Shown here in pieces: positions 1,946 through 53,480 of a DNA stretch of 54,071 nt. The DNA is from Lachnospiraceae bacterium (GTDB lineage Bacteria; Bacillota; Clostridia; Lachnospirales; Lachnospiraceae). Positions within the stretch are counted from its first letter, which is position 1, and each line of letters starts with the position of its first letter. Made by a program: the position numbers and the translations under genes. The DNA is taken from assembly GCA_017441265.1 (NCBI GenBank), contig JAFRYE010000059.1, positions 1 through 54,071 on the forward strand. Direction: 5' to 3'. Under the pieces are notes generated by a model. The model was not told the DNA's origin. It made no database searches and saw only the letters and a program-made list of their open reading frames with translations.

Positions 1946-3190
1946 ATGGGTTACGAAGTTTTTTTGGATTTGGCATTAATTATCATATTCGCAAAGGTTT
2001 TCGGTATTCTGGCCAGAAAGCTGAAAGCACCGCAGGTCGTCGGCGAGATTCTCGCGGGACTTTTGCTCGGACCGGCCGTTCTCGGCTGGGTGCAGGCATC
2101 GGAGTTTCTGGCAACCATGGCGGAGATCGGTGTCGTCCTTTTGATGTTCTCCGCAGGACTTGAGACCAACCTGCGCCAGCTCGCGCGCTCCGGCCTCGTG
2201 GCAACGCTGATCGCGTGCTTCGGCGTGGCTGTTCCGATGGCAGGCGGCACGGCATTGTACATGCTCTATTACGGCGTGCACTCATTTTCCGGTCCCGCAT
2301 TCCATGAGGCGATCTTCATCGGCTGCATCATGACCGCCACAAGCGTCGGCATCACCGTTGAGGCGCTGCGCGAGATGGGCTACTTAAAGGGCCGCGTCGG
2401 CACGACCATCTTAAGCGCCGCCATCATCGACGACGTCATCGGCATCATCGTGCTCACCTTTGTGCTCGGCTTAAAGGACGAGTCCCTAAGTCCCTTGACG
2501 ACGATCCGCAACACGGCGCTCTTCTTCGCCGCTGCGTTTCTCCTAGGTTACGTGTTCTACCGTCTCTTCCGCAAATACGACCAGATGCACCCGCACACGC
2601 GCCGCATCCCCATCGCGGGCCTCGCGCTGTGCCTTCTGATTTCCTACTCCGCCGAAAAATTCTTCGGCATCGCGGACATCACGGGAGCATTTGTCGCCGG
2701 TATCATTCTGTGCAACATCCGCGACTCGAAATACATCGCGGAGAAGATGGACATCAACTCCTACATGCTCTTCGGTCCGGTCTTCTTTGCCTCGATCGGT
2801 ATCAAGACCTCGATTGACACGATGAGCGTAAGCCTTCTCGTCTTCTCCGTCCTCTTCGTCATCGTCGCGATGGCCACAAAGGTCATCGGCTGCGGCGCGA
2901 TGGCAAAGCTTTGCAAATTCAAGAACAATGAAGCGCTCAAGATCGGCTGCGGCATGATGACGCGAGGCGAGGTAGCGCTGATCATTTCCCAGAAAGGCCT
3001 GAAGGTCGGCCTGATGACGTCGGACTACTTCACGGCAGTCATCCTTTTGATCATCGTCTCCTCCATCGTGACGCCCATCACCTTGAAGCTTTGCTTCAAC
3101 AAATGGAAGGACGCGGAGTGCGAGGATGCCGGAGAAGACAGCAAAGCCGCACCGACGGAAACTCCTGCCGACAGCACCGCAAACGCATAA
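1946..3190 (+). CDS. Cation:proton antiporter, CPA2 family
   Basis: 414 aa with about 12 hydrophobic segments, typical of CPA2 (KefB/NapA-like) antiporters, which exchange Na+ or K+ for H+ across the membrane. Signature stretches are VVGEILAGLLLGPAVLG in TM2 and SAAIIDDVIGIIVL (residues about 167-180) with the paired Asp expected for ion binding. A short hydrophilic tail rich in Glu, Asp and Ala (from about residue 388) replaces the regulatory NAD-binding domain of the longer Kef proteins. The start ATG has CAAGGAGA upstream. It is a single-gene unit with its own promoter and terminator. Ion preference cannot be read from the sequence. Confidence 0.9.
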   Translation: MGYEVFLDLALIIIFAKVFGILARKLKAPQVVGEILAGLLLGPAVLGWVQASEFLATMAEIGVVLLMFSAGLETNLRQLARSGLVATLIACFGVAVPMAGGTALYMLYYGVHSFSGPAFHEAIFIGCIMTATSVGITVEALREMGYLKGRVGTTILSAAIIDDVIGIIVLTFVLGLKDESLSPLTTIRNTALFFAAAFLLGYVFYRLFRKYDQMHPHTRRIPIAGLALCLLISYSAEKFFGIADITGAFVAGIILCNIRDSKYIAEKMDINSYMLFGPVFFASIGIKTSIDTMSVSLLVFSVLFVIVAMATKVIGCGAMAKLCKFKNNEALKIGCGMMTRGEVALIISQKGLKVGLMTSDYFTAVILLIIVSSIVTPITLKLCFNKWKDAECEDAGEDSKAAPTETPADSTANA

Positions 3191-3213
3191 CCGGAAAATA
3201 AACATAAAAATAC

Positions 3214-3256
3214 GGACCGTCGATTCCTCTTCGGGATCGGACGGTCCTTTTTGTAA
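3214..3256 (+). terminator. Terminator of the antiporter gene
   Basis: GGACCGTCGATTCC and GGGATCGGACGGTCC form a long stem with loop TCTTC, followed by TTTTTG. The ZIP gene on the other strand ends at 3266, so the hairpin may serve both. Confidence 0.85.
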
Positions 3257-3265
3257 TTCGGGATT

Positions 3266-4119: not shown

Positions 4120-4144
4120 CGGAAAATGAACTCCGCATTTTCCG
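4120..4144. repeat. Inverted pair of the GGAAAATG motif between genes
   Basis: CGGAAAATG (4120-4128) and CATTTTCCG (4136-4144) form a perfect 9-bp inverted repeat with a 7-base loop. It lies between the stop of the P-type ATPase (4156) and the ZIP start (4051). It can fold as a weak terminator after the ATPase, but has no clear T-run. Confidence 0.7.
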
Positions 4145-4155: not shown

Positions 4156-5301
4156 TCATCCGGCTTTCGTTTCGTCGTGCAGAAGATCCGTCATACAATC
4201 AATTCCGAGAAGGATCGTTGATGTATTATGCAACAAAGCCGACGTTGCCGGCGGCAGCAAACCGAGTGCGCCGAGCAGGATCAGCGAGCCGTTAAATCCC
4301 ATGACAAACCGGTAATTGCGATCGATCCGCCGCATCAGTCCTGCCGCGAGTTTTCGCAGGATGACAAGTTCCCGCAGATCCTCCGCGGCGATGGTGATAT
4401 CCGCAACCTCCCGCGCAATGTTGGCACCGCTTCCGATGGCGATTCCGATGTCCGCCAGGGAAAGTGCCGGCGCGTCGTTGATACCGTCACCGATCATGAT
4501 GACCTTGTGGCCCTTCTCCTGCTCCTCCCGGATAAATCGTGCCTTGTCCTCGGGCAGCACCTCAGCGTGGAAATCGTCGACGCCGACTTCGGCCGCGACA
4601 GCTTTCGCCGTGTTGGCTCCGTCTCCGGTGAGCATGATCGCACGCTCGATTCCCGTCTCGTGCAACAGTGCAACCGTCTCCGCCGCCTCCGGACGAAGCG
4701 GATCGAAGATGCCGATCGCCGCCGCGAGTTCTCCGGCAATTGCAAGATACAGCCACGAGCAGCTCGGATCCAGCGACTCGAACTTCTCCTTCTCACCCTC
4801 GGGGATCCGCACATTCTCATCCTCAAACACAAAATGCCGGCTGCCGATCACGGCGCGCTCGCCGTCGATCGTCGTCGCGATTCCGTGGGCCACCACGTAT
4901 TCCACTTCGCTGTGCAGTTCCGTGTGCAGAAGCCCCCGCTCCTCGGCGGCTCTGACCACGGCGTTGGCCACGGAATGCGGAAAATGCTCCTCCAGACACG
5001 CGGCAACCCGAAGCATCTCCGCCTCGTCGTTCCCGCGGAACGGAACTACCGCTTTCACTGTCGGGCAGGCGTTCGTGAGCGTCCCCGTCTTGTCGAAGAT
5101 CACAGCGTCTGCCTCGCTCAGGATTTCCAGGAATTTGCCGCCCTTGACGGTAATCTTGTATCGCCCCGCCTCACGCATCGCAGACAGGACACTGAGGGGC
5201 ATGGAAAGCTTGAGCGCACACGAAAAATCGACCATCAAAACCGACACGGCGCGCGTGGTATTGCCGGTCAAAAGCCATGTGAGAAGGCTTCCGCCGAGGC
5301 A
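4156..5301 (-). CDS. P1B-type metal ATPase, C-terminal part (after in-frame TGA)
   Basis: This is the continuation, in the same frame, of the ATPase reading frame 5302-6252: the two are separated only by TGA at 5304-5302, followed by TGC CTC GGC GGA. The only start codon close to the break is TTG at 5271 with no good ribosome binding site, so independent translation is doubtful. The part holds a membrane helix with SCALKLSMP where other P1B ATPases have CPC or similar, the phosphorylation site DKTGTLT (Asp at residue 60 counted from TTG 5271), the ATP-binding domain, GDGINDAPALSLADIGIAIG and two C-terminal helices. The catalytic motifs are intact, so the interruption looks recent or is decoded in some way. 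Confidence 0.85.
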   Translation of the reverse strand, partial: CLGGSLLTWLLTGNTTRAVSVLMVDFSCALKLSMPLSVLSAMREAGRYKITVKGGKFLEILSEADAVIFDKTGTLTNACPTVKAVVPFRGNDEAEMLRVAACLEEHFPHSVANAVVRAAEERGLLHTELHSEVEYVVAHGIATTIDGERAVIGSRHFVFEDENVRIPEGEKEKFESLDPSCSWLYLAIAGELAAAIGIFDPLRPEAAETVALLHETGIERAIMLTGDGANTAKAVAAEVGVDDFHAEVLPEDKARFIREEQEKGHKVIMIGDGINDAPALSLADIGIAIGSGANIAREVADITIAAEDLRELVILRKLAAGLMRRIDRNYRFVMGFNGSLILLGALGLLPPATSALLHNTSTILLGIDCMTDLLHDETKAG

Positions 5302-6252
5302 TCACGGAACAAGCCGGTCCGCCAGATTGTACGCTCTGCTCTCCGCGCCGGACTTCAGCCGCTCGGACTCCTCGATCATTCGCACGATCCGGTCATAGCG
5401 GTTCTCACCCGCAACGCCGGTCACGCGGACGACACAGTTGCCCTCCTCGACGACACTCCCGGCATACACCGCGGCGCCCTCGTGCTTCTCCACGGGCACC
5501 GACTCGCCGGTCAGCGACGCCTGGTTGAGCATCACGTCTCCCTGCTCCAGAATGCCGTCGAGCGGGATCACGTGCCCGGTATTTATCACGATCCGGTCTC
5601 CTGCGACAATCTGTCCGATGGGCACAAGCACCTGTGTCCCGTCCGCACCGATGATCCACACGCGGTCAACCTGCAAGGACATGCTTCTCGCCAGATCTTC
5701 CACGGACTTTTTGTGCGTCCACTCCTCTAACGTCTCACCGATGCTTAAGAGGAATCGAACGGAACCTGCCGTCACATGGTCGCCGGTCAGCAGTGACGTC
5801 CCGATGGCTACGCCGTCAAGGACATCCACCGTCAGTCTGCCCTGCGCCAGCGTCTTCCCTGCCCGCACGATCCGAGGCACGGCGCAAACCGTGTTGATCG
5901 CGCACCGTACGGACATCGGCAGAAACCACCGTTTGGCATAGTGGCGCAGGATCTGGAATACCAATTTCTCCTTGTATTCACGGTTCGTCGCGCGCCCGGA
6001 GTGAATTCCCGCAGGCAGTTCGTCCGCCGCCCTCTCATAGGAAAATGATGCTATTTTCCGATACAGCTCCTCCCGGTCACCGGTGAACCGGACTGTGATC
6101 CCGCAGATTCTCTCGTGGATCTTCACCTGCTGCACCGCAGGGATCGCCAGAAGCCATCCCTCCAGAGCGTCCGCCTGCTGCATCGTCATGGAGCGCTGAA
6201 CGGCGCGAAGCCGCACACGCCCCGCACTTTCATGAAGGATCGTAAACTTCAT
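5302..6252 (-). CDS. P1B-type metal ATPase, N-terminal part, ends at in-frame TGA
   Basis: 316 aa. Residues 1-70 form an HMA-like domain without the CxxC pair (MKFTILHESAGRVRLRAVQR). Hydrophobic segments lie at about 105-130 and 140-170, and the actuator domain carries LTGESVPVEKHEG at about 247-259. The frame stops at TGA after NLADRLVP, a point where the family continues into the next membrane helix; the remainder is in frame downstream. The gene starts 15 bases after the 6268-6537 gene and shares its operator-controlled promoter. A small glycine-zipper protein followed by a P1B-type ATPase recalls the fez (ferrosome) loci of anaerobes; I infer an iron-related role but cannot prove it. A sequencing error, a nonsense mutation or recoding are all possible. 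Confidence 0.85.
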   Translation of the reverse strand: MKFTILHESAGRVRLRAVQRSMTMQQADALEGWLLAIPAVQQVKIHERICGITVRFTGDREELYRKIASFSYERAADELPAGIHSGRATNREYKEKLVFQILRHYAKRWFLPMSVRCAINTVCAVPRIVRAGKTLAQGRLTVDVLDGVAIGTSLLTGDHVTAGSVRFLLSIGETLEEWTHKKSVEDLARSMSLQVDRVWIIGADGTQVLVPIGQIVAGDRIVINTGHVIPLDGILEQGDVMLNQASLTGESVPVEKHEGAAVYAGSVVEEGNCVVRVTGVAGENRYDRIVRMIEESERLKSGAESRAYNLADRLVP

Positions 6253-10530: not shown

Positions 10531-10588
10531 TTAGGGAACACTGTTCCCTAACTTTGATTAATTTAACTCAGGATACGGAAAATGTCAA
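10531..10588 (-). promoter_or_regulatory. Promoter and 21-bp operator of the TetR gene
   Basis: On the minus strand TTGACA (10588-10583), 17 bases, TAAATT (10565-10560). Eight bases downstream lies a perfect palindrome (10531-10551) with arms TTAGGGAACA and TGTTCCCTAA around one central base. A GGAAAATG motif (10577-10584) sits in the promoter. Confidence 0.75.
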
Positions 10589-11676: not shown

Positions 11677-13884
11677 TCAGCGCATCCACATATTCACCCG
11701 GTTCACGCGACCCCGTACAAGGATCAGCGAGATCGCATAGGCGAAGACTGTCAACGCCGCCGTAAGGAGAATGCTGACCGGCTTGAGCGTCGCCGGGATC
11801 ATAATATTCTCGACCTCGACAAATTCCACGCAATACCAGTACATGACTCCGTACGCGGCCGCAATTCCTGCCGCGATGCCCGGGATCAGCAGAAGATGAT
11901 TTGAAGATATCATCATGGAATTGATCCTGCCGTCCTCCATTCCGAGAACCTTCAGCATGGAGATCGTGTAGGCATTTTCCGAGATCAGCGTATTGATCGT
12001 CGCGTACAGGGCAGCGACACAGACGATAACGCCGATCACCATAAGTGCATCGATGACGCCTGCCATGGACTGCTTCATGTTTTCCATCTGCGTCCGGTAA
12101 GTGGAATCGGTGATCATCTCCGTGGCCTCGGCTTCGATGTCCGGAAGCGCCTGCTCGGAGAGCACCGCGTTGTAGCAATTCTCCGGGAGGCCGCACAATT
12201 CCGCGATGATCTCACGCGAGGCAATCAGATAGCTCTCGTAGCCGTTTTTGATCACGCCGCGGACGGTCACGGTGTGTTCCTCCAGCGTGGCGATGCTCCG
12301 GAAGGTAAAGGTGTCCCCCTCGTGGACGCCGAAAATTGCTTCAAACAGCGTGCTGATATAGAACCCGTTCGCGATGTCCGCACGTTTCCCATCTGTCGTT
12401 GTCAGGTTCCAGAGTTCTGCGTCCTTATCCATTCCCATCGCGGTAAACCGCCGGGATTCCAAATCCTCAAACTGCATCGCCAATACGGCCTCCGCGCCCT
12501 CCGGCGTACCCTCCTTCAGCGTGCCGAGAATATACTCGTACTTAAAGCTTCCGAACTCCTCGTGTGCCTTCTCGCCGACAGCATCCACGGAATCCAGGAA
12601 CGAAAACGCGAACGCCACAAGCATCGCTCCGAGGAAAATGCCGGCAAAGATCACGATGCTCCGCCCGGGATTACCGATCAGCTGGCGGACTGCCATTTTC
12701 CGACGAATGAGAAGCTTTCTCTTCGCGAGGATCCGGCGGGATTTGCCGTCATTGCCGACGGCTCCGGCCAGAAGCTCCACCGTGTCCGCCTGAAGCAGCG
12801 CGCGCACCCGGAGCATGGATGAGATATAATAGATCGCGGTGGGGATCACAATGCCCGCCACGGCCACCCACAGGGGCAACCGGAAATCCGGTTTCATCGG
12901 CTCGTAATCCGCAAGACCGATCTTTCCGAAGGGCTCCGCAAGCAGCAGGGACAGCACTGCCGTCAACAGTCCTCCCAGAGCTCCGGGGATCACCGCGAAC
13001 AGGCTGTAATGCCGCATCAGCCGGCCCCGGTCATATCCCATCGCCGACAGCGTTCCGATCAGTTTCTGCTCCGAGCGGATGCGCCGGCCGAGCAGGATGC
13101 ACACCAGCGCCACCGTCAAAAGAGGAAACACGACAAGCTCGATCCACGAGGACATGATAAACATATCCGCCTGCTCGTGAACAAAAGTGATGCGCTTGTT
13201 ATTGTCCGCATTGAGGTAGCCGGACATGTAATACTTCTCGTTCACCTCGCGGCGGAACGCTGCCTCGTCGGTCTCCTCACCGTAGATCACCTTGTAGTTG
13301 ATCGTTCCGGTTCCGAACTGCCGCTCAAACTCCGCGGCCGTCATGTACGCGAGAAAAAAATCCGAAACGTTCTTGTAGTCGTCGGAGACATTTTCCACCA
13401 TGTACAGATAGTCCGGGCGCAGGAAGGTTCCCGCGATCGTGTACTCCCGTCCCTTCAGGACAATCGTATCTCCCTCCCCGAGGCCGTGTTCCTCCGCGTA
13501 GCCTGCGGAGATCAGGATTTCCCCGTCAGACGAGAGATCATGCCCCTCCTGAAGCTCGTAGAGGTCAACTTTCCTGTTCGAAGCAAATACGCGGGCATGG
13601 TACTTCCCCTCGTCGATCGCCGCGCAGTGCTCCTTCTCCATGGTGAGCACGTATTTCGTCTCCAGCTCTGCAACCGCCTCCTCCGGGATTTCCGTGTATG
13701 CGGAAAATGTTGCATCCTCGCATCGGTTTCTCGCGAAGAAGCTGTCCCCGAACTCATTGATGCCCGTACCGGCCACGTAAAACAGATAGAACAGCAACAA
13801 AGTCAGCATGGTGAGAACCGTGGCCGAGGCATAAAAAGGCAGATTGTTGCGTATATTTCGCTTATAGCGTCTGTTCAGTTTCAT
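11677..13884 (-). CDS. FtsX/MacB-type ABC transporter permease (second copy)
   Basis: 735 aa from ATG 13884 (MKLNRRYKRNIRNNLPFY), which has GAGGTGG upstream; the longer frame to 14004 only reads through the ATPase gene. The layout is as in the other two large FtsX-type permeases: an N-terminal helix, two outer domains and two sets of membrane helices, here with a particularly long first outer domain. It pairs with the ATPase ending 10 bases upstream. No GTTAGC palindrome precedes this pair. Substrate unknown; peptide or lipid export is typical of the class. Confidence 0.9.
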   Translation of the reverse strand: MKLNRRYKRNIRNNLPFYASATVLTMLTLLLFYLFYVAGTGINEFGDSFFARNRCEDATFSAYTEIPEEAVAELETKYVLTMEKEHCAAIDEGKYHARVFASNRKVDLYELQEGHDLSSDGEILISAGYAEEHGLGEGDTIVLKGREYTIAGTFLRPDYLYMVENVSDDYKNVSDFFLAYMTAAEFERQFGTGTINYKVIYGEETDEAAFRREVNEKYYMSGYLNADNNKRITFVHEQADMFIMSSWIELVVFPLLTVALVCILLGRRIRSEQKLIGTLSAMGYDRGRLMRHYSLFAVIPGALGGLLTAVLSLLLAEPFGKIGLADYEPMKPDFRLPLWVAVAGIVIPTAIYYISSMLRVRALLQADTVELLAGAVGNDGKSRRILAKRKLLIRRKMAVRQLIGNPGRSIVIFAGIFLGAMLVAFAFSFLDSVDAVGEKAHEEFGSFKYEYILGTLKEGTPEGAEAVLAMQFEDLESRRFTAMGMDKDAELWNLTTTDGKRADIANGFYISTLFEAIFGVHEGDTFTFRSIATLEEHTVTVRGVIKNGYESYLIASREIIAELCGLPENCYNAVLSEQALPDIEAEATEMITDSTYRTQMENMKQSMAGVIDALMVIGVIVCVAALYATINTLISENAYTISMLKVLGMEDGRINSMMISSNHLLLIPGIAAGIAAAYGVMYWYCVEFVEVENIMIPATLKPVSILLTAALTVFAYAISLILVRGRVNRVNMWMR

Positions 13885-13894: not shown

Positions 13895-14596
13895 TCACAG
13901 CTCGATCTCGTCCGCAGTGCGGCGGGTCTCATTCTGCCGGACGGACGCCACAACGCCGTCACGGATGCGGACCACGGTGTCAGCAAGCTCTGCGATCGCC
14001 TCATTGTGTGTGATGATCACGGTCGTCGTCCCGTACTCCCGGTTCATCTTCTCCACAAACCGAAGCACCGAGCGAGAGGACTTCGTATCAAGCGCCCCTG
14101 TCAACTCGTCACACAGCAGAAGCTTCGGATTCTTCACCATCGCCCGCGCAATGGCCACACGTTGCTGCTGTCCGCCGGACAGTTCTCTCGGAAAACGATA
14201 CCGGTATTTTTCGATGTCCAGCGCCCTCAAGATCTCGTCCGTATCCAGTGGGTTCTGTGCGATCTCCGCGACGACCTGGACATTTTCCTCGACCGTGAGG
14301 TCGGGGATCAGGTTATAAAACTGAAATACAAAGCCGATGCTCCTCTTGCGATACCCCGTCAGTTCTTTCTTGCTCCGGCCGGTGATCTTCTCTCCGTCGA
14401 CAACGATCTCGCCGGAATCCGGACTGTCCAATCCACCGATCATGTTCAAAAGCGTGCTCTTGCCCGACCCCGACGGTCCGAGGATCACGCACAGATTTCC
14501 CTTCTCAAGCGAAAAATTCACCCCGTCCAGCGCATAGACTGCCGCCTCTCCTTCCCCGTACTGTTTCTTTGCTCCCTGAATCTCGATAAATGCCAT
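13895..14596 (-). CDS. ABC transporter ATP-binding protein (MacB/LolD type, second copy)
   Basis: 233 aa. Walker A GPSGSGKST, FQFYNLIPDLTV, LSGGQQQR and THNEA are present. The Walker B region reads LLLCDELTGALD, where the family, including both paralogues here, has DEPTG; the catalytic Glu remains, but the following Pro is Leu. It pairs with the permease at 11677-13884. The ribosome binding site is weak (ACGGAAA). It follows the ABC/ECF operon and is separated from it by the hairpin at 14609-14630, so it may depend on read-through or on a weak promoter near 14667. Confidence 0.9.
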   Translation of the reverse strand: MAFIEIQGAKKQYGEGEAAVYALDGVNFSLEKGNLCVILGPSGSGKSTLLNMIGGLDSPDSGEIVVDGEKITGRSKKELTGYRKRSIGFVFQFYNLIPDLTVEENVQVVAEIAQNPLDTDEILRALDIEKYRYRFPRELSGGQQQRVAIARAMVKNPKLLLCDELTGALDTKSSRSVLRFVEKMNREYGTTTVIITHNEAIAELADTVVRIRDGVVASVRQNETRRTADEIEL

Positions 14597-14608
14597 TTTC
14601 CGTAAACA

Positions 14609-25109: not shown

Positions 25110-25147
25110 TTTCCTCCTATTATACGCTTGATTTCGTTCTACCCGCC

Positions 25148-40921: not shown

Positions 40922-42991
40922 TCAGGCCAGTTTCACAAACACATCGTCCACGAAGAAGTCTGCGCGGCCGTCGGTCTCCACGTACAGTTTCGCCGAGAGA
41001 ACGCCGTCCGGAAGCGTCGCTGTCGTGTGAACTTCGGTCCACTCGCCGATCTTCGAAGCGACCTCCGCGCAGAGCACGGGCTCGGAGCCGTCGATACCGA
41101 CGCGGATCACACTGTCGGACGTCTTGACAAACATCGTGACGTCGATGGTCTTGCCGATGTACGCGGACACATCCAGCGAGATCGTCGCATCCTTCTCCTG
41201 GCGGGTTACGCAAAGAGATTTGCCCTTGCCGTCCACGGATTCCTGATCCGTAACGAAGATGAACGGCAGGTGGCCTGCTCCGCGGATTGCCGCGATGTTG
41301 GTCTCCTCCTCGAAGCTCTCCTCCTGGCCGATCAGCGAGATCTCAAGGTCATCGAGGAACAGCGGACTGCAAGGTCCTTCGTGCTCCTCCTTCGTCCCGA
41401 AGAACAGCCGCAGCGAATGCTGGCCGCCCGGCACCTTGTAGGACGCACTGATTTTCTTCCACTCCGTGCCGCCGTCTACCTTCGCGATCTGCGGGAAAAT
41501 GCCTTCGATGTCTGCGCCGAGGGTAATCTCCTTCGCCTCGCTGTACACCCACGCGTCGATCTGGATCGTCTGACCGATGAAGTCGGACACGTCGCATGTG
41601 ATGCCCATCCAGTCGGCAAATCGCGGTGTCGTCGTGAGCGAATAGCGGCCGCTGTGCGCCTTCTCCTCCGAGAGGATACACTCGCCGAAGCCGCGCATCT
41701 TGAAGCCATACTCCTCGGGCTTCTTCGGCTCCTCGCCCTCGGGCGTCTCGAAGTCGTACACATGCTTGCCGAGGTCTCTCGCCACGTACTCCGGCTCGCC
41801 CAGATCGCCGCCGGTCACCGCATACACAAGCGCCTCATGCGACTTCTTCGCCGAAAGGTCCTTGCGGAACAAAAGCGGATCGGCGCCGCGGATCCAGGAG
41901 TTGTCGTCCGTCAAGCCCCAGACCGTCACGGACGTGAGGTTTGCGCCGGCCTTCTTCGCCGCGATCAGGCGCTCGAAGAACTCCTTGTAAAATACGGCCT
42001 GATAGTACTCGCGGTTTTGGTTGGTGCAGGTGCATTTTACGTCGAGCTCGGTGATCTGAACCTCGCGGACAAGGCTCGCGTACTCGTTGAGAGCATCGAT
42101 GTATTCGTCGATGTCGTTATTGTCCGAAATATGGCCCTGCATACCGATGCCGTCGATCAGCCCCTCACCGAGGATGCTTCCGTGGCCGTGACCCTCACGC
42201 TTGAGAGCCGCGATGATGGCCGCCTTCTTGTCGGGCTGCCACTCGTTGTAATCATTGTAGACCAGCGTCGGGCGAATGCGCGCAAGCGCAGCCTCATCCG
42301 CCGCATCAATGCCGTACACTCCGGCGTACTTCACGGAATGCTTCATAACCGCCGCCTTCGCGAAGCGGAACGCCCAGTAAATGAAATCGTCGCCGATGAC
42401 CTGGTACCAGTAGCTGTTGCGAAGACCGGTCTCCGTCTTGTCCGCAAGCTCGATTGCCTCATTGACAACGTCCCACGCATAAATCTGCTCCGCGTAGCCC
42501 TCGCGGTAGAGATAGTCGAGCATCGAATCGATGTAGCTCTCGAGACGCTTGAGCATCGTGTCGCGATCAACGAAGCAGACCGGATCGAGCTTCTGGAAGA
42601 ACCGAAGGCGCGGATTCTCCTTCAACTTCTCCGGATCCACCGGAACAAATACCGGCTTGTACTCCTTACAAAATGCCTCCTGAGCGCACTGGCTGTGCCA
42701 TACCATCACGTGAGCGCGCATCTTCATGCCGTGCTCACGTCCCCAGTCGAGCATCCTCTTTGCGTTCGGATTGATCACGTACGGCAGGTAATCCTCCCTC
42801 GCATCGGGGCTGTTCCAGCCCATGTTGTACACGGGCTTCATCTCATTGGCGCACGTCATGCTCGAGAACTCCCGGGCGATCAGCGCCTCCTTGTCCGGGT
42901 TACCGATCTCATTGTTCTCGAACCGGTCGTGTATACTCTCTACAGCCGTTCCGATCTTGAACAGATCCTTGTAAACCTCTTTTAAAACCAT
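40922..42991 (-). CDS. GH10 endo-xylanase with two C-terminal carbohydrate-binding-like domains, no signal peptide
   Basis: 689 aa. Residues about 1-360 form a GH10 barrel that cleaves beta-1,4-xylan or xylo-oligosaccharides: acid/base Glu178 in WDVVNEAIE, nucleophile Glu315 in QITELDVKC, and MRAHVMVWHSQ. Two beta-sandwich domains follow (about 390-530 and 540-689), each of the CBM4/22 kind as far as can be seen. AGGAGGAAGGAAA precedes the ATG. There is no signal peptide or membrane segment, so the enzyme should work in the cytosol on imported oligomers, although binding domains are more usual on secreted enzymes. It starts 12 bases after the GH3 gene; they form an operon. Confidence 0.93.
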   Translation of the reverse strand: MVLKEVYKDLFKIGTAVESIHDRFENNEIGNPDKEALIAREFSSMTCANEMKPVYNMGWNSPDAREDYLPYVINPNAKRMLDWGREHGMKMRAHVMVWHSQCAQEAFCKEYKPVFVPVDPEKLKENPRLRFFQKLDPVCFVDRDTMLKRLESYIDSMLDYLYREGYAEQIYAWDVVNEAIELADKTETGLRNSYWYQVIGDDFIYWAFRFAKAAVMKHSVKYAGVYGIDAADEAALARIRPTLVYNDYNEWQPDKKAAIIAALKREGHGHGSILGEGLIDGIGMQGHISDNNDIDEYIDALNEYASLVREVQITELDVKCTCTNQNREYYQAVFYKEFFERLIAAKKAGANLTSVTVWGLTDDNSWIRGADPLLFRKDLSAKKSHEALVYAVTGGDLGEPEYVARDLGKHVYDFETPEGEEPKKPEEYGFKMRGFGECILSEEKAHSGRYSLTTTPRFADWMGITCDVSDFIGQTIQIDAWVYSEAKEITLGADIEGIFPQIAKVDGGTEWKKISASYKVPGGQHSLRLFFGTKEEHEGPCSPLFLDDLEISLIGQEESFEEETNIAAIRGAGHLPFIFVTDQESVDGKGKSLCVTRQEKDATISLDVSAYIGKTIDVTMFVKTSDSVIRVGIDGSEPVLCAEVASKIGEWTEVHTTATLPDGVLSAKLYVETDGRADFFVDDVFVKLA

Positions 42992-43003
42992 TTTCCTTCC
43001 TCC

Positions 43004-45817
43004 TTAATTACCGTGCACAATTCCGGGAATTCCCATGACTTCCTCAAGCGTGCCGATATATTTCAGTCTCATGCGAACCAGTTTCAATCCTTCCTGCGAA
43101 AAATGCATCCGCTGCACCGCGTGGTTCGAGTTGAAGAACAGCGTGCCCTTCTCCGTCACTTCCTGTCCGTTGGTTCCGTGAAACACGAAGGAAAATACGG
43201 GAATCCCCGCGAAGAACCAGGTTACCGGCAGCTGAGCCGCCTCAGTGCCCTCGCCGATGACGGTCAGCTCGATCTCGTAGCCGCCCATCTCATCGATGTC
43301 CAGACCGTAGGAATAGTCGGCGCCGCGCACCGCTCGAACATGCGACAGATCGATGGTCGTGTCGCGGGTGACGGTGAAGTACTCGATGTTGCTGTCCGCG
43401 GTGGTCTCCCACTCCGGTCCGCGCCCTAGGATCTCAACCGCTTCGTCCTCGCCGCACATGCGAAGCATCGTGGGCAGGCGCATCAGTACACCGCACACAT
43501 TTGCCGCCGTGCGAAGGAGACACGCTCTGGTCACCTTGCCCGAAGCGATCGCCTCCGGCAGATTGTCGCCGTGGTTGTTCTTCGAGCCGTCCGGGCAGAT
43601 CATGTAGGTATCATTTTGCGCAAGAACCATGTCCGCGAAGTTCGTGTGGCTGCCGCCCGCGGTTTCCGCACGCCCGGTAGCCGCGTCCTCGTTGATCGCC
43701 GCCCACCAGTCGGTCATGACGAAACCGTCGAAGCCCCACTGCTCGCGGAGAATCTTCGTGTTAAGTTCCGCGTCGCACGACGTCCACATGCCGTTCACGC
43801 GGCCGTAGGTCGTCATGACGGTGCAAGCCCCGCCCTCCCGGATCGCAATCTCAAAGCCGCGAAGGTAGAGCTCGCGCAGAGCCCGTTCCGAGACGACCGA
43901 GTCGGATGCATAGCGGTTCCACTCCTGGTTGTTGCAGCAGAAATGCTTGATCGTTCCGGTCACGCCGGCGCGCTGCAGACCCTCAAGCTCCGCTGCCGCC
44001 ATCGCTCCGGTGAGGAGAGGATCCTCGCTGAAATATTCGAAATTCCGTCCGTTGAACGGATGTCTGTGCAGGTTCATGCCGGGTCCTAAAAGGCAGTCCA
44101 CCTTGTTGATGCGCATTTCCCGGCCGACCATCTCCATCAGATCGGCGGCGAGCTCGCGGTTGAAGGAACATGCGATCAGCGTTCCGATCGGAATGGCCAT
44201 CGCCTTGTCGCCGCAGTCGAGGCGCAGACCGCTGGGGCCGTCCGAGCAGCATCCGCAGGGCACTCCGTGCGCCTTCAAAACCTCGCTCGTTCCGCCGTAC
44301 GCGGACGCCGTTCCGGGCGTGACCTTCGGGCTTCCCATGCCCTCACCGCGAACAAACGGCAACAGCTCCTCGTCCGTAAACTGCGCTAAGAACGCATCCA
44401 TCGTCACCTTGCCGTCGCGCACGTCGCGGAGCATCCAGCCCCGATCGCCCGTGTACGCAGGCGCCTCGGGGAGTTCCGGTTTCGCCCCCTCGCCGCAGCC
44501 GAAGGAATTCGTCCGAAGCGGTGTCGGCTCGCTCACATACATATACCGGTCGCCGTCCCGGACCGCCTTGCGCCGCTCATACGGCACCGCCGGTTTCATC
44601 GCTGACTCGCACTCCTCGACAACCTCGGTCTGCTCCAGCGTAAAGCGGTACACTTCCGCCGCGTCGCGCACATTTTCCCCGAGGAAAATGACATACTCTC
44701 CGGCTTCCATCACAAAGCAGCTCTCGTAGCCGCTCGCGCCGGAATCGTCGTAGGACGAGAGGTTTCTGCGCTCGATCGTCAGCACCGCCGTCTCGCTCTC
44801 TCCCGGCGCGATCTCGCCGGTCTTAAGGAATCCCGCCAGCACGCGCGCGGGTTTGCCGAGAGCTCCTTGGGGAGCCTGCATGTAACATTGGAGGACGCAT
44901 TTTCCGGCGTATGCCCCCGTGTTCTTCACCGTCGCCGAGACATAGAGATACTCGCCGTCGTACTGCGACTGCCCGGACTCAATCGCAAATGTCGTGTAAG
45001 ACAGGCCGAAACCGAAGGGGAAGCGCACGCGCTCCTTCGCCGCCGTCTCAAAATGCCGGTAACCGACATAGATATCTTCCGCATAGATGTTGCGCACCGG
45101 GCTTCCGAAGTTCGCGTCGGCAGGATAGTCTGCCGCATCATACGCGATGGTGTCCGCGAGATGACCGCTCGGGCTGACGCGCCCCAGAAGCACATCCGCA
45201 ACGCCGGCTCCCGTCATCACGCCGCCCTGCCAGATGTACATCACCGCCGCCGGGTTGCACTCATCCATAAAACTCATGTCGACGATATTGCCCGTATTCA
45301 GTAAAATGACGGTTCTCGGGCAGGCCTCGCACACCGTCCGGATCATCGCCGTCTCCTCGTCCGTGAGAAGGTACGAGCCGGAAAGATTTTTGTTGTCCTG
45401 GTCCTCGCCGGCGCTTCTGCCGATGATCACGAGCGCCGCGTCCGTCCGCTCAGCCACCGCTTCCGCAAGTTCTCTGTCCACAGGCATCTCCGCCTGCGAC
45501 CATGGTTCTTTGCCCCAGCCGATGCCGACTTCGCGGGGATTTGCCGCTTCCCATTCGCGGTAGATCTTCGCGAGATCCTCATCCACGGTGACGCCGTCCT
45601 CCGCGGCGAGAGCATCCAAAAGCCTCACGCGCTTGGGGATGTTCACCAGACCGCCCGAACCGATGCCGGCGATGTATTCCTTGCTCTGGATCCGCCCGTA
45701 AACCGCAACGCGGCAGGGCTTTTGCAACGGCAGTGCGCCGTCATTTTTCAAAAGTACAACACCCTCGGAGATCACTCGCTCGGCCAACTGTTCGTAGACC
45801 TTGTAATCCAGTTTCAT
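43004..45817 (-). CDS. GH3 family beta-glycosidase with permuted domain order
   Basis: 937 aa from ATG 45817 (MKLDYKVYEQLAERVISEG), with GGAGGGG upstream; the much longer frame to 46372 overlaps the MntP gene and is not real. The usual C-terminal domain comes first (ISEGVVLLKNDGALPLQ, IIGRSAGEDQDNKNL, FGFGLSYTTF), then an FnIII-like domain. The catalytic barrel is at the end (CSDGPSGLRL, LGPGMNLHRHPFNGRNFEYFSEDP, KHFCCNNQEWNR), with nucleophile Asp in FVMTDWWAA. This permutation is known from beta-glucosidases of Ruminococcus and Butyrivibrio. No signal peptide. It probably removes glucose or xylose from oligomers made by the GH10 enzyme. Confidence 0.95.
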   Translation of the reverse strand: MKLDYKVYEQLAERVISEGVVLLKNDGALPLQKPCRVAVYGRIQSKEYIAGIGSGGLVNIPKRVRLLDALAAEDGVTVDEDLAKIYREWEAANPREVGIGWGKEPWSQAEMPVDRELAEAVAERTDAALVIIGRSAGEDQDNKNLSGSYLLTDEETAMIRTVCEACPRTVILLNTGNIVDMSFMDECNPAAVMYIWQGGVMTGAGVADVLLGRVSPSGHLADTIAYDAADYPADANFGSPVRNIYAEDIYVGYRHFETAAKERVRFPFGFGLSYTTFAIESGQSQYDGEYLYVSATVKNTGAYAGKCVLQCYMQAPQGALGKPARVLAGFLKTGEIAPGESETAVLTIERRNLSSYDDSGASGYESCFVMEAGEYVIFLGENVRDAAEVYRFTLEQTEVVEECESAMKPAVPYERRKAVRDGDRYMYVSEPTPLRTNSFGCGEGAKPELPEAPAYTGDRGWMLRDVRDGKVTMDAFLAQFTDEELLPFVRGEGMGSPKVTPGTASAYGGTSEVLKAHGVPCGCCSDGPSGLRLDCGDKAMAIPIGTLIACSFNRELAADLMEMVGREMRINKVDCLLGPGMNLHRHPFNGRNFEYFSEDPLLTGAMAAAELEGLQRAGVTGTIKHFCCNNQEWNRYASDSVVSERALRELYLRGFEIAIREGGACTVMTTYGRVNGMWTSCDAELNTKILREQWGFDGFVMTDWWAAINEDAATGRAETAGGSHTNFADMVLAQNDTYMICPDGSKNNHGDNLPEAIASGKVTRACLLRTAANVCGVLMRLPTMLRMCGEDEAVEILGRGPEWETTADSNIEYFTVTRDTTIDLSHVRAVRGADYSYGLDIDEMGGYEIELTVIGEGTEAAQLPVTWFFAGIPVFSFVFHGTNGQEVTEKGTLFFNSNHAVQRMHFSQEGLKLVRMRLKYIGTLEEVMGIPGIVHGN

Positions 45818-45860
45818 AAACCCCTCCTTCCCGGTTTTTCCCGGAAAATGTAGTAAAAAT

Positions 45861-47283: not shown

Positions 47284-47312
47284 ATTATAGCCCATTTTCC
47301 GTTTTATCACAA
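47284..47312 (-). promoter_or_regulatory. Sigma-A promoter of mtnN
   Basis: On the minus strand TTGTGA (47312-47307), 17 bases, TATAAT (47289-47284). A GGAAAATG motif (47293-47300) fills the middle of the spacer. Confidence 0.7.
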
Positions 47313-47314
47313 CG

Positions 47315-48059: not shown

Positions 48060-48085
48060 CAAAAATCTCCGAATACGAAAAATAA

Positions 48086-48118: not shown

Positions 48119-48171
48119 TGCATTTCCTTTGTCCTGTTCCCCGCGCTTGAAAAACCCTCTGAAAAGTGTTA

Positions 48172-48238: not shown

Positions 48239-48319
48239 GAATCAGCTTGTATTATTGTTTTCGAGTATACATCTCTCAACCTTGCAAATGCAGTATATCA
48301 CAGAAATTTAATATTCAGT

Positions 48320-48332
48320 GTGACTTAGTCAC
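48320..48332. promoter_or_regulatory. Small palindrome upstream of the cellobiose phosphorylase promoter
   Basis: GTGACTTAGTCAC is a perfect 13-bp palindrome 88 bases upstream of the -35 box, a possible activator or repressor site. Confidence 0.35.
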
Positions 48333-48420
48333 AAAGATAAGCATTTTTCTTCGCTGAACGAAATAATGAAAAAAAATGACAAATTACCTGTCCGATTTTT
48401 ACCCATCCCGTAGATTCTGC

Positions 48421-48449
48421 GTGACAACCCACTCTAAGTAGGCTATAAT
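48421..48449 (+). promoter_or_regulatory. Sigma-A promoter of cellobiose phosphorylase
   Basis: GTGACA (48421-48426), 17 bases, TATAAT (48444-48449); the leader to the ATG is about 60 bases. Confidence 0.72.
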
Positions 48450-48514
48450 AAGCCGATGGGTTTTTTCCCGTAAGCAAGAATACAGCCAAAGTTAATCATT
48501 AAGGAGGACTCGGA

Positions 48515-50995
48515 ATGAAATACGGCTATTTCGACGACGCACGCAGAGAGTACGTCATCACCACGCCGCGGACACCGTATCCGTGGATCAACTACCTCGG
48601 TATGGAGGGATTCTTCTCCCTTATCTCGAATACCGCCGGCGGTTATTCCTTCTATAAGGATGCCCGCCTGCGCCGCATCACCCGCTATCGCTACAACAAC
48701 GTACCGATCGATATGGGTGGTCGCTACTTCTACATCAAGGACGGTGATACCGTATGGAACCCCGGCTGGTCTCCGGTCAAGACCGAGTTGGACAGCTACG
48801 AGTGCCGTCACGGTATGGGCTACACGATCATCACCGGCAAGAAGAACGGTCTCAAGGCTGAGGTTACCTTCTTCGTGCCGCAAAATTACGACGGAGAGGT
48901 TCAGCAGGTTGTTCTGACCAACGAGAGCGACGCTGCCAAGTCCTTCAGCCTCTTCTCCTTCGCCGAGTGGTGCCTCTGGGACGCTCAGGACGACAGCAAC
49001 AACTTCCAGCGCAACTTCTCCACCGGACGCGTCGAGGTTGTCGGCTCCACGATCTACCATAAGACGGAGTACCGTGACCGCCGCGATCATTTTGCGTTCT
49101 ACACGGTCAACGCCGACATCGACGGCTATGACACCGACCGCGATTCCTTTATCGGACTTTACAACGGTTTCGGCGATCCGCAGGCCGTTCTTGCCGGAGA
49201 GGCGAACAATTCCTTCGCCGACGGCTGGGCTCCGATCGCTTCGCACTACAAGAAGATCACCCTTGCTCCCGGCGAGACGAAGACGCTTGTCTTCATCCTC
49301 GGTTATGTTGAGATGCCGGCCGATCAGAAGTTTGAGGCCGACGGCAAGACGATCAACAAGACCAAGGCTCTTGCCATGATGGAGAAATACAATACTCCGG
49401 AAAAGGTTGCCGCAGGCATGGCGGAACTCCGCGCAGCCTGGGACAAGCTCCTCGGCATCTTGAGCGTCGAGACACCCAATGACAAGGTCGACCGCATGGT
49501 CAACATCTGGAACCAGTATCAGTGCATGGTCACCTTCAACCTGTCCCGCTCCGCGTCGTACTTCGAGTCCGGCATCGGCCGCGGCATGGGCTTCCGCGAT
49601 TCCAACCAGGATATCTTAGGTTTCGTTCATCAGATTCCGGACCGCGCAAAGGAGCGTATCATCGATATCGCTTCCACGCAGTTCCCGGACGGCGGATGCT
49701 ACCATCAGTACCAGCCGCTCACCAAGAAGGGCAATGCCGACATCGGCGGTGACTTCTCCGACGATCCGTTGTGGCTGATCCTCTCCGTCTCCGCTTACAT
49801 CAAGGAGACCGGCGACTGGTCCATCCTCGACGAGATGGTTCCTTACGACAACGACATGAGCAAGGCGCAGACGATGCTCGAGCATCTGAAGGTTTCCTTC
49901 TATCACATCGTTAACAACCTCGGACCGCACAAGCTTCCGCTTGCGATGCGCGCCGACTGGAACGACTGCATCAACCTCTCCTGCTACTCCGATACGCCGG
50001 GTGAGAGCTTCCAGACCTACACGAACCCGAAGTTCAAGGCTGAGGGCGGCTACTCCAAGGTTGCCGAGTCCGTCATGGTTGCTGCGCTCTTCACCTACAC
50101 CGGTCCGAACTACGTCGCGATCCTCAAGCATCTCGGCAGGGACGATGAGGCCAAGGCCGCTCAGGACGCCATCGACGCGATGAAGAAGGCCATCATGGAT
50201 TCCGCGTGGGACGGCGACTGGTTCCTTCGTGCATACGACGCCAACGGCGAGAAGATGGGCTCCAAGGAATGCGAGGAAGGCCAGATCTTCATCGAGCCGC
50301 AGGGCTTCGCGATCATGTCCGACGTCGGCAAGGAGCAAGGCACCGCTCAGAAGACCCTCGCCGCGATCGACGAGAGACTCAACACGAAGTTCGGTCTCGT
50401 ACTCAACAACCCCGCGTACTCCAAGTATTACATCCAGTACGGTGAGATTTCCACCTACCCGGGCGGTTATAAGGAAAATGCAGGTATCTTCACCCACAAC
50501 AACGCATGGATCATCTGCGCGGCTGCTTACGCAGGACAGGGTGACCTCGCGTTCAAGTACTATTCCGAGATCGCTCCGGCATTTACCGAGGAGACCAGTG
50601 ATATCCACAAGACCGAGCCGTTCGTTTACGGACAGATGATCGGCGGCAAGGATGCCGGTTCCGACATCGGACGTCCCGGCAAGAACTTCGGTCAGGGCAA
50701 GAACTCCTGGCTGACCGGTACCGCTGCATGGAACATGGTTGCCATCTCGCAGTACATTCTCGGCATCATGCCCGACTTCGACGGTCTGAAGGTAGATCCT
50801 TCGATCCCTGCGGAATGGGACGGCTTCACCGCAACGAGACAGTTCCGCGGCGCAACCTACAACATCACGATCAAGAATCCGAACCACGTTTGCAAGGGTG
50901 TGAAATCCCTCACAGTGGACGGCAAAGCTGTGGACGGCAACATCATCCCGGCACTTGCTTCCGGTGCTCACGAGGTTGTCGTAACCCTCGGCTGA
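48515..50995 (+). CDS. Cellobiose phosphorylase (GH94)
   Basis: 826 aa, the normal length. The enzyme splits cellobiose with phosphate to glucose 1-phosphate and glucose in the cytosol, saving ATP. Typical stretches: the N-terminal [58 protein letters not shown], and the catalytic Asp in [10 protein letters not shown]; the phosphate site fits FTHNNAWI and GTAAWN near the end. GGAGG precedes the ATG. Codon choice is strongly biased (AAC, GGC, CTC), suggesting high expression. A strong promoter and a perfect terminator enclose it as a single gene. Confidence 0.97.
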
Positions 50996-51427: not shown

Positions 51428-51518
51428 AGTACATGTTCTCCTTTGGTTGGGTTAATTCTAACTCTACAACATTCTGCGGGAAATACAATTACTTTTGGAT
51501 GAACGACAGATTATTTTG

Positions 51519-51541
51519 ATGAACGACACAGTTCCGTTCAT
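51519..51541 (-). terminator. Possible terminator after the GH25 gene
   Basis: ATGAACG and CGTTCAT form a 7-bp stem; the minus strand continues CAAAATAATC without a T-run. The sequence GATGAACGACA occurs twice in tandem here (near 51499 and 51518). Confidence 0.35.
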
Positions 51542-51548
51542 TTCGGGG

Positions 51549-53480
51549 TCAGTTCCAGGGTTTCACCAGCACGTTGAGGTCGAACTTGCATGTGAGACCG
51601 TTCACCTTGCCTTCGCTCGTGTACTGCCAGATGTTGAAATCATAGCGGTACGTCACTTTATCGGTATAACTTGCGAGCCAGAACGGATACTCCGCAAGCT
51701 CGTCGCGGTTGATGTTGAGGATTGACCAGTTGATGCTCGTGTAGACCATTGCCTGGTAGCCCGCCGCCGCGATCCGGTCGAGAAATGCCTTCGTGACCGC
51801 GGTGCGCTGATCCCTGCTGATGCGGTTGCCGCGAGGACCGTCCGCCAGGGAAGGATAGTTCTTCGGGTCCCATTTTTCGGTGTCGAAGACGATGGGCCAG
51901 TTGATGTCGTAGTCCTTGATGAAATCCAGCACGAACTCCGCCTCGGCGATGCCTTCCGCCTCGGTGATCGCCTGCGTGCAGAAGTACACGCCGACATCCA
52001 GCCCGTTCTCAAGAGCACCCTCGATGTTGTCCCTTGCGTTCTTGTCCGCCTCCAACGTTCCTTCGCCGGGGCCGCGGTAACCGACGCGGACGATCGCGAA
52101 CGAGATGCCCGCATCCTTCATCTTCTTCCAGTCGATCTTGCCGTCGTGCTCCGAGACATCGACACCCATGCGGGAAATGATCTGCCTCTCGTCGTTGCCG
52201 AAATAGCGGAACCCTGCGGAGTCCTTCCAGTAATGGTCGTCGTCAAAGTTGAGCGTCTGCTTCGCGACACGCTTGTACTCCGGCAGGAACAGCTTCTCGC
52301 CGCTGCCGTTGCCGATGGAAACCGGATTCTCGATATAGTCGATCGACGGGGTGTTGATCCCGTTGAAATCCATGTCATTGTAGTTGAAGCTCACGTACGC
52401 TCCCACCGTCGCGTCCACAACCTTCAAAGTCGCCTGAACCGGCGCCAGCGTGGCCGTCACGACGCCGTAGTACTCGCCTTCCTTGACGTACAGAAGCGAC
52501 GTCACCACGATCCCGTCGTCCGTGAATTCACACGAAAAATGCTGCCCGCAAGCCAGCGCGTGTCCGCCCATGTTTCGCACGAGCTCACGCACCTCCTCCG
52601 ATGCGGAAAATGTATACTGATTTCCGTGACCGGTCGTCAGAATGATCGTCTCGTTGGAATTCTCCGCCAGCGGGTTGACGTTGTTGCCGATGGACAGTCC
52701 GAACCAGTTGCGGACCGCATCGTACACATTCTGCTCGCGCCCGGCGTTCATCATGCCGGGCTCCAGGACCACGACGGAAGTTGTCCCGTCATTTTTCGTC
52801 TGCACGAAGAAAATGTACTTTGTACCGTTGATCATCGTGGGCTCCGGCGTGAGCAGCGACCAGTCGTCCTGCAGCGTGTACGGCACGCTGTAGCTGATCG
52901 TCTGCGACGCTTCCATCCAGCAGCTGTACTCGCTCTTCGTGGCTTCATTGACCGAGGAGTACTCGTTCCGGTACAACAGCGTGAACTCCGGATTGGAGCT
53001 TCCGCCGTAGGAAAATGCCACGTATTCCGCGTCCAGGATCGTCCGTTTGGTTGCGACATACGTCCCGTTTTTGGAGTTGAACTCCGCGATCTTCGACTCG
53101 ACGTCCTCGCAGAGACGATACTTCGTGCCCGTCTCCGTCGTTCCGTTCTCCGGCTCCTTGCCACCGTTGTTGCGGTTTCTCGAGGAAATGAAAAATACGA
53201 TGCATAACGTCAGAAGGATCGTCGCCGTCACAAACGTTAAGATCATCCACAACTGCTTGCGCGACCGCAACTTCTGGTTTTGCTCCTCCAGGCTGTCGCG
53301 CTCCTGCTCCATCTCCCGGAATGTCTGTTTTCCGGACTGCGTCTGAAGCACCAGTTCCTCGATATCGTACCCGCGCTCGTACGCCTCCTGCTCATCTCTC
53401 TCTTTATCAATCATGCGCATTACCCCCAAAACAGTCTCGCCGTCCGGCCGCTTCTCCCGGCCGCACAACGTTTGGTACAT
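51549..53480 (-). CDS. Membrane-anchored GH25 lysozyme-like muramidase
   Basis: 643 aa from ATG 53480; ATG 53420 (MRMIDKERDEQ) is a possible shorter start. Residues about 25-75 form a charged coiled coil in the cytosol, residues about 78-98 one membrane helix (LWMILTFVTATILLTLCIVFF), then about 300 residues of unrecognised outer domain. The GH25 domain starts at about 430: GVDVSEHDGKIDWKKMKDAGISFAIVRVGYRG with the conserved DVSxHxGxIDW start, and WPIVFDTEKW with the acidic pair. It cuts the glycan strands of peptidoglycan, here probably in its own wall. Type II orientation with a cytosolic coiled coil suggests a tether to a cell-division or growth complex. Confidence 0.9.
   Translation of the reverse strand: MYQTLCGREKRPDGETVLGVMRMIDKERDEQEAYERGYDIEELVLQTQSGKQTFREMEQERDSLEEQNQKLRSRKQLWMILTFVTATILLTLCIVFFISSRNRNNGGKEPENGTTETGTKYRLCEDVESKIAEFNSKNGTYVATKRTILDAEYVAFSYGGSSNPEFTLLYRNEYSSVNEATKSEYSCWMEASQTISYSVPYTLQDDWSLLTPEPTMINGTKYIFFVQTKNDGTTSVVVLEPGMMNAGREQNVYDAVRNWFGLSIGNNVNPLAENSNETIILTTGHGNQYTFSASEEVRELVRNMGGHALACGQHFSCEFTDDGIVVTSLLYVKEGEYYGVVTATLAPVQATLKVVDATVGAYVSFNYNDMDFNGINTPSIDYIENPVSIGNGSGEKLFLPEYKRVAKQTLNFDDDHYWKDSAGFRYFGNDERQIISRMGVDVSEHDGKIDWKKMKDAGISFAIVRVGYRGPGEGTLEADKNARDNIEGALENGLDVGVYFCTQAITEAEGIAEAEFVLDFIKDYDINWPIVFDTEKWDPKNYPSLADGPRGNRISRDQRTAVTKAFLDRIAAAGYQAMVYTSINWSILNINRDELAEYPFWLASYTDKVTYRYDFNIWQYTSEGKVNGLTCKFDLNVLVKPWN

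Follow-up and report, generated by a model that had tools for sequence, protein, structure and literature searches.

The 54,071-base stretch of DNA presented above (contig JAFRYE010000059.1 of the Lachnospiraceae assembly GCA_017441265.1), referred to here in its entirety as the window, raises the question of why one short DNA word, the octamer GGAAAATG, recurs in it so many times. The initial annotation, made from the letters alone, had put the word at about 40 copies in both orientations, against about one expected from base composition; our count was 42 (19 on the plus and 23 on the minus strand) and the computed expectation 1.33. In 100 dinucleotide shuffles of the window, the octamer appeared 2.14 times on average (sd 1.49, maximum 7), and among its 280 anagrams it ranked first, the runner-up reaching 12 copies and the mean of the others being 1.5. 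A longer nine-base form, CGGAAAATG, was present in 26 copies, compared to 0.91 in the shuffles. The sites are listed below, the longer form being given where it is present; copies were found throughout the range of 2283 to 53017 that had been annotated, although the copy at 1402 had been missed.

1402..1409, plus strand, GGAAAATG
2283..2291, minus strand, CGGAAAATG
4120..4128, plus strand, CGGAAAATG; left arm of an inverted pair, partner 4136-4144
4136..4144, minus strand, CGGAAAATG; right arm of the same pair, partner 4120-4128; intergenic by our own gene calls
4978..4986, plus strand, CGGAAAATG
6040..6047, plus strand, GGAAAATG
10576..10584, plus strand, CGGAAAATG
11973..11981, minus strand, CGGAAAATG
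12633..12640, plus strand, GGAAAATG
12694..12702, minus strand, CGGAAAATG
13389..13396, minus strand, GGAAAATG
13701..13709, plus strand, CGGAAAATG
14281..14288, minus strand, GGAAAATG
14594..14602, minus strand, CGGAAAATG
14896..14904, minus strand, CGGAAAATG
17462..17470, minus strand, CGGAAAATG
19142..19150, plus strand, CGGAAAATG
19558..19565, minus strand, GGAAAATG
20232..20240, plus strand, CGGAAAATG
23730..23738, minus strand, CGGAAAATG
24836..24843, plus strand, GGAAAATG
25107..25114, minus strand, GGAAAATG
25994..26002, minus strand, CGGAAAATG
28531..28539, minus strand, CGGAAAATG; inverted pair, partner 28553-28560; within a called gene
28553..28560, plus strand, GGAAAATG; inverted pair, partner 28531-28539
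29781..29789, minus strand, CGGAAAATG; ABC exporter gene, D-P-E-N-E segment
33161..33169, minus strand, CGGAAAATG; ABC exporter gene, D-P-E-N-E segment
34897..34905, minus strand, CGGAAAATG; ABC exporter gene, D-P-E-N-E segment
35210..35218, minus strand, CGGAAAATG
36340..36347, plus strand, GGAAAATG
37473..37481, minus strand, CGGAAAATG
37951..37959, plus strand, CGGAAAATG
41494..41501, plus strand, GGAAAATG
42989..42996, minus strand, GGAAAATG; ORF 40922-42991 has its listed start codon in the ATG of this copy
44671..44678, minus strand, GGAAAATG; inverted pair, partner 44683-44690; within a called gene
44683..44690, plus strand, GGAAAATG; inverted pair, partner 44671-44678
44898..44906, minus strand, CGGAAAATG
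45842..45850, plus strand, CGGAAAATG
47293..47301, minus strand, CGGAAAATG
50473..50480, plus strand, GGAAAATG
52604..52612, plus strand, CGGAAAATG
53010..53017, plus strand, GGAAAATG

The genome containing the window (G000; 2,585,061 bases in 79 contigs, 97.4% complete, 4.35% contamination) carried CGGAAAATG 1042 times (531 forward, 511 reverse), one copy per 2.5 kb, compared to 9 copies (4 forward, 5 reverse) of a control consisting of the word read backwards, so that the enrichment is not a peculiarity of the window. A comparison with a third-order Markov model, which had been proposed as a check, gave the same result: in a 762 kb sample of G000, made up of the window and 40 further stretches, one of them reading as N, CGGAAAATG and GGAAAATG were found 293 and 492 times against 19.75 and 45.9 expected with the word masked. 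The word is real, and its excess is extreme in this clade. The DNA around it showed a weak TT before and an A after, and was otherwise unconserved (155 sites in a 376 kb subset), which argues that the word is not a repeat element or family. CCTTAGC was also frequent, with 28 copies against 6.3 expected in 376 kb of G000.

Form and placement of the word in the genome

The effect of codon usage was assayed in 536 predicted genes of G000, obtained by simple gene calls of our own, by 20 rounds of gene-by-gene shuffling of synonymous codons. GGAAAATG was found 368 times in these genes against 43 under shuffling, and CGGAAAATG 200 times against 20.6. The excess of the octamer was present in all six strand and frame classes, the largest being one sense frame (139 of the 368 copies), and genic copies were split into 198 sense and 170 antisense (p 0.16). 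Codon or amino acid preference is thus insufficient, as had been claimed. Word density in the sample was 0.91/kb in intergenic compared to 0.58/kb in coding DNA, and gaps of less than 600 bases reached 1.3-1.5/kb.

When single substitutions of CGGAAAATG were counted in the 762 kb, those at positions 1 and 3-7 (numbered from 0) were for the most part close to expectation or lower. The clearest exceptions were A to C, both at position 3 (40 vs. 15.5) and at position 4 (26 vs. 10.5), and A to T, also at position 3 (15 vs. 7.2). At positions 0, 2 and 8, substituted forms were enriched 2.8- to 9-fold, except for T at position 8 (26 vs. 14.9). This tolerance profile looks like that of a protein reading double-stranded DNA.

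Strand heterogeneity was absent across 39 site-bearing loci (chi2 36.9). The G-rich strand carried the word more often both in G000 (279 vs. 210, p 0.002) and in its congener G189 (100 vs. 69, p 0.02), because the word itself is G-rich; its share on that strand was 57.1% in G000, compared to 68.9% for anagrams of the same composition, and 59.2% compared to 68.4% in G189. Orientation with respect to replication, which the initial annotation had wished to see checked, was judged from the strand skew of the stretches instead of a mapped origin, and by this measure the word is less polar than its anagrams, which speaks against polar Chi- or KOPS-like sites. The process maintaining the word is close to symmetric between strands.

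Site spacing was near exponential (mean 1379, sd 1301). Out of 19 pairs of neighbours within 60 bases, 16 were inverted, several of them intergenic with gaps of a few bases. Terminator-like pairs therefore exist and make up a small part of the sites, and with so few pairs they were ruled out as the main cause of the excess.

Distribution, dialects and turnover among relatives

Counts of CGGAAAATG and of its reversed control, given here in that order, were compared in 299 genomes from 298 genera of the family. Only G189, the one congener of G000 in this survey, resembled it (763/14), followed by G073 (401/15), G209 (340/5), G089 (337/20) and G293 (233/19) and by a lower gradient (e.g. G114, 170/19; G188, 169/21); some large genomes had many copies but also high controls (e.g. 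G253, 339 vs. 93). Among 291 genomes of the class, comprising G000, nine family members and 281 from outside the family, none was comparable to G000 for CGGAAAATG, the highest count outside the family being 152 vs. 17.

A scan of genome contigs for PilB of the type IVa pilus yielded 63 loci, the close ones belonging to uncultured Lachnospiraceae metagenome-assembled genomes (MAGs), many of them labelled as coming from buffalo, yak, goat, sheep or horse. The comparison of related genomes suggested in the initial annotation could be made on 30 of these: 15 (G189 being one of them and so counted again) carried 212 to 1060 copies of CGGAAAATG and the other 15 carried 33 to 112. The highest counts were those of RGIG10172 (1060/8), SRR12081299_bin.56 (1019/11) and RGIG8148 (1005/7). 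As the word-rich MAGs come from several projects, an assembly artefact is unlikely as source of the word. In a PilB tree of 37 rows, which does not contain G154 and G209 and in which G073 and G089 stand on open forks, the word-rich genomes grouped into a single clade, whose sister clade had intermediate counts. Counts followed this tree apart from L131 and L105 (genomes G328 and G307), a two-member word-less clade nested between the word-rich plus intermediate clades and L107 (253/17); its position suggests that these two lost the word, or that the word was gained twice.

Altered words were found in related genera. CGGNCAATG reached 1107 copies vs. 49 genome-wide in G073 and 572 vs. 24 in G154, compared to 177 vs. 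54 in G000, with a moderate excess in G295 (322/46), G072 (258/36) and G126 (218/31). The word preferred in G154 was GGKCAATGNC, 59 of 79 sites having its final C. Among the gapped words of G073, GGNNAATG was the strongest (225 vs. 39 in 116 kb), and GGGCAATG, GGTCAATG, GGCCAATG and GGACAATG were each found at 10 to 24 times expectation. Judged from such counts, CGGAAAATG, CGGNCAATG and GGKCAATGNC behave as dialects. A second over-represented word, GGCTAAGA/TCTTAGCC, was seen in G089 (L085-L088; 13 vs. 0.6 in 77 kb), and no other word stood out in 59 and 80 kb of G055 and G101, two PilB-bearing genomes of low GC.

Against the synonymous null, GGNCAATG was raised 9.9x in G073, 5.4x in G154, 4.4x in G089 and 1.4x in G000. 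For GGAAAATG, the ratio was 8.2x in G000, 6.3x in G189, 9.2x in G304 and 5.6x in G209 (15 copies), lower in G089 (4.2x), G293 and G308 (3.5x each), G305 (3.3x) and G310 (1.9x), and 1.2x and 1.9x (13 vs. 7.0) in the word-poor G307 and G328; G178 reached 4.0x (16 vs. 4.0). The reversed control gave 0.8x in both G000 and G189, and up to 3.0x (3 copies) and 2.4x (7 copies) in small samples. G295 and G178 were rejected as clear carriers, being enriched genome-wide but with a small or unclear excess in samples of 70-80 kb.

Turnover of sites was followed in 134.7 kb aligned between G000 and G189 at 74.7% identity. Intact orthologous sites amounted to 11 of 43 in G000 and 11 of 29 in G189, compared to 14% for anagram words (p 0.047 and 0.0016), so that sites are kept at 1.8 and 2.7 times background, although the majority of them turn over. 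Gap-free alignment was obtained for 37 of the 43 G000 sites, 11 being intact and 6 having one mismatch, and strongly diverged ones may be misaligned. Elsewhere, where sites were few, those intact were 2/12 and 2/5 in congeners, 0/2 and 0/1 in sister genera and 1/2 and 1/1 in G328.

Word density fell as the identity of the encoded protein to its G189 homologue rose, from 0.64/kb (<65%) through 0.47 (65-85%) to 0.35 (>=85%), with a Spearman coefficient of -0.21 (p 0.008) over the 157 of 536 genes with a homologue in the sampled 400 kb of G189. The 270 genes unmatched in the sampled stretches had 0.62/kb, but as relatives were partly sampled they are not a foreign-gene set.

Mobile elements were searched for in 11 word-bearing genomes (G000, G189, G300-G304, G316, G325, G073 and G154). 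The HK97-type portal PF04860 was found in one of them (two in G300, a congener of G000) and the relaxase PF03432, taken as a marker of conjugative elements, in none of the 11, which may reflect the binning of MAGs. Two stretches of G300, L226 on the one hand and L227 with the first 4571 bases of L228 on the other, are prophages: all 10 proteins tested in the first, and 8 of the 9 tested in the second, matched phage families, including terminase, portal, major head, tape measure and two serine integrases. Together, these 44.6 kb contained 2 copies of CGGAAAATG and 5 of GGAAAATG, against 12.1 CGGAAAATG predicted from the genome mean (p 0.0005), a depletion of about sixfold. This count is conservative, since one of the two CGGAAAATG copies lies at base 28 of L226, past the last tested phage gene. 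The chromosomal DNA of G300 right after the integrases had 9 CGGAAAATG in 15.4 kb.

Competence genes and the possible role of the word

The initial annotation had pointed to competence genes as worth looking for, and they were found in G000. ComEC and ComEA are encoded, and a type IVa pilus operon is located on contig C30 (37.9-52 kb), where Pfam identified PilB with its MshEN domain, PilC, a PilM domain, five prepilins with the N_methyl motif and a PilT-like T2SSE; PilD, PilO and two other large genes of the operon were labelled by position and eye. A T2SSE plus T2SSF set, read as Tad type, is also present. MshEN was detected in 123 of the 299 family genomes, and in G293, G286, G257 and G240 among the genomes with moderate CGGNCAATG counts picked by eye.

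From strand symmetry, altered words, prophage depletion, intergenic excess, the lower density in conserved genes and the competence genes found, we consider it likely that the word acts in the manner of a DNA uptake sequence and has dialects. This is one of three candidates that had been named for it; a polar site of Chi or KOPS type is disfavoured by the results above, and a chromosome-organising protein is weighed below. In the excerpts available from PMC7811141, uptake sequences evolve by point mutation and are under-represented both in newly acquired segments and in coding sequences under constraint; in those of PMC7371117 the density of the DNA uptake sequence (DUS) of Neisseriaceae falls drastically in genomic islands, and in those of PMC3630211 its dialects track core-genome phylogeny. 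Leaving aside point mutation and phylogeny, the distribution properties tested here agree with the excerpts of PMC7811141 and PMC7371117, except that no single pilus type went with the word.

In the proposed mechanism, (T)(T)CGGAAAATG(A) would be a tag preferred on double-stranded DNA by a surface receptor, which is probably one of the minor pilins of either the type IVa or the Tad pilus; retraction of the pilus, with ComEA and ComEC, would import the tagged DNA, which would then recombine with the chromosome. Fragments bearing the word would be taken up and recombined more often, so copies arising by point mutation would spread by molecular drive and fill both orientations and all frames, within the limits set by gene function. 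We infer the uptake of DNA, the preference for the word, its reader and the drive from the distribution described. Either pilus could supply the reader from among its minor pilins, and one candidate is a GspH/ComGD-like minor pilin (L098-L109 and L131; near 21,200-22,460), which in sequence matches known pilins and GspH mainly across the N-terminal helix and gave a model with a mean pLDDT of 76.9. Its C-terminal end reads LTGKVSY, LTGRVSY or LTGKVTY in word-bearing rows (L099 being incomplete), compared to YTGKISTK in two word-poor rows, a single clade contrast that we take as a lead.

Several observations weigh against an uptake sequence. ComEA was found in all 27 genomes tested (26 above the cut-off) and ComEC in 19 of 20 (G154 not being among them), so neither discriminates. 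The MshEN domain of PilB was not found in the word-bearing G154 (87% complete) and G209 (98% complete), which have T2SSF gene pairs of Tad type by size and pairing, nor was it matched in G295, G072, G126, G291, G260, G289 and G292, all with moderate CGGNCAATG counts. Conversely, the word-poor L131 and L105 keep the pilus operon, as well as ComEA and Tad-type genes. As neither PilB nor the operon tracks the word, the presence of the pilus was ruled out as a single explanation. The operon on C30 is itself nearly word-free, with one copy at 39815 (in the PilT gene) and the next at 53390; GGAAAATG is absent from C30:40001-53389 (L038:1-13389), for which the sample mean predicts about nine, and the GC content of the operon (0.499) suggests a recent arrival or rapid change. 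Neighbours within 60 bases were as frequent as in a Poisson distribution (19 vs. 18.7), the prophage depletion comes from a single genome (G300), GGAAAATG or GGNCAATG also stood 2-4x above the synonymous null in genomes with no clear uptake-like word (e.g. G178, G295 and G328), and the word-bearing organisms are uncultured.

The main rival and strongest alternative to an uptake sequence is a binding site for an abundant chromosome-organising or nucleoid protein, with selection keeping hundreds of dispersed sites, which we regard as unlikely. Strand symmetry, dispersed and near-exponential spacing, intergenic density, prophage depletion and the tolerance profile would all fit such a protein, but it would not by itself predict that other genera have words with different strict positions, or that one nested clade lacks the word, and the lower density in conserved genes is better matched by neutral accumulation than by sites that are required. 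A recombination hotspot of Chi type or a KOPS-like segregation motif would also be a short word over-represented across the chromosome. Such sites work on a single strand and, as a rule, are polar, whereas our word is less polar than its anagrams and without strand heterogeneity over loci; the Chi sites of some species show no polarity bias, so this argument is not final, but we hold such a role to be very unlikely.

The word might instead be written or protected by a different process, for instance a modification system or a repair-linked bias; a precedent is HIP1 of cyanobacteria, a palindromic over-represented word without a settled function. CGGAAAATG differs from its own reverse complement and is thus not a palindrome of HIP1 type, and no repeat unit surrounds it; we find this explanation quite unlikely. 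Preference for codons, codon pairs or dinucleotides in a genome of 55% GC could be argued from the large share of copies in one sense frame and from the 2-4x excess of GGAAAATG in other family members, and it may explain part of this weak family-wide excess. Nevertheless, the word stood at 8-10 times the synonymous-shuffle null, with six frames raised, a higher density outside genes, sharp single-base specificity and a reversed control below that null in G000 and G189, so that codon preference was rejected as the sole cause in the window's genus and, as a general account, appears extremely unlikely.

Returning to the uptake sequence, it seems rather probable on these data that, independently of the Gram-negative cases, a monoderm family evolved a self-DNA tag with three or more dialects, read by a pilus whose type differs by genus (type IVa in that of the window, possibly Tad in G154 and G209). 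This would be a third case of uptake sequences, in Bacillota, meaning that self-DNA tags can arise without an outer membrane and that transformation in uncultured gut Lachnospiraceae is frequent enough to rewrite their genomes. Ideas about receptors and molecular drive could then be tested on an independent set of dialects and pilins, and DNA carrying the word might aid the transformation of bacteria that are hard to manipulate.

With regard to the genes of the window, FtsX-type permeases and ABC exporters, followed by glycoside hydrolases of families GH10, GH3 and GH94, are found at 6815-36478 and 40922-50995, and a Pfam match was obtained for 9 of the 10 long ORFs scanned; this content fits a plant-fibre degrader. 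Four copies of the word had been assigned to a DxENE segment shared by the exporters, and three of five translated places (29781, 33161 and 34897) read D-P-E-N-E.

Comparison with known systems

Chi and KOPS are likewise short words over-represented along the chromosome, yet usually polar, in contrast to the non-polar word of Lachnospiraceae. The initial annotation knew of no such word in Clostridia, and our literature search met no contrary report: no paper containing the word was found, and the matches listed included no uptake sequence for Firmicutes, Bacillota, Clostridia or Lachnospiraceae, in a search that left subscription journals mostly uncovered. Published uptake sequences are limited to Neisseriaceae and Pasteurellaceae in the excerpts available from PMC12616744 and PMC7811141.

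DNA uptake dependent on a Tad/Flp pilus is described for Micrococcus luteus and Liberibacter, one of them monoderm, in the available portions of PMC4322843 and PMC8513845, which do not mention an uptake word; the word-bearing G154 and G209, in which PilB was not detected, resemble them in their Tad-type T2SSF pairs.

The DUS (GCCGTCTGAA and its dialects) shares more with the word. It too has dialects that keep part of a core (PMC3630211, in excerpt) and is reduced in islands (PMC7371117, in excerpt), and a type IV pilus is common to both. The DUS core CTG is absent from the word of Lachnospiraceae, inverted pairs are a minor class of the latter, unlike in DUS, and the density of DUS, one per 400-1100 bp in the same excerpt of PMC7371117, is higher than that of CGGAAAATG. 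The DUS receptor is ComP, compared to a candidate minor pilin here.

In the uptake signal sequences (USS) of Pasteurellaceae, the letters are unrelated to those of the word, and the phylum differs from the monoderm Bacillota, for whose word uptake is proposed. The spacing of the USS in H. influenzae is about 1 kb (PMC7811141, in excerpt), compared to one CGGAAAATG per 2.5 kb in G000. Nevertheless, according to the parts available of PMC3630211 and PMC7811141, the USS (Hin-USS, AAGTGCGGT; Apl-USS, ACAAGCGGT) are, like the word of Lachnospiraceae, nine bases long, non-palindromic and present in very many copies, rarer in acquired segments and constrained genes, and divided into two versions between groups of species.

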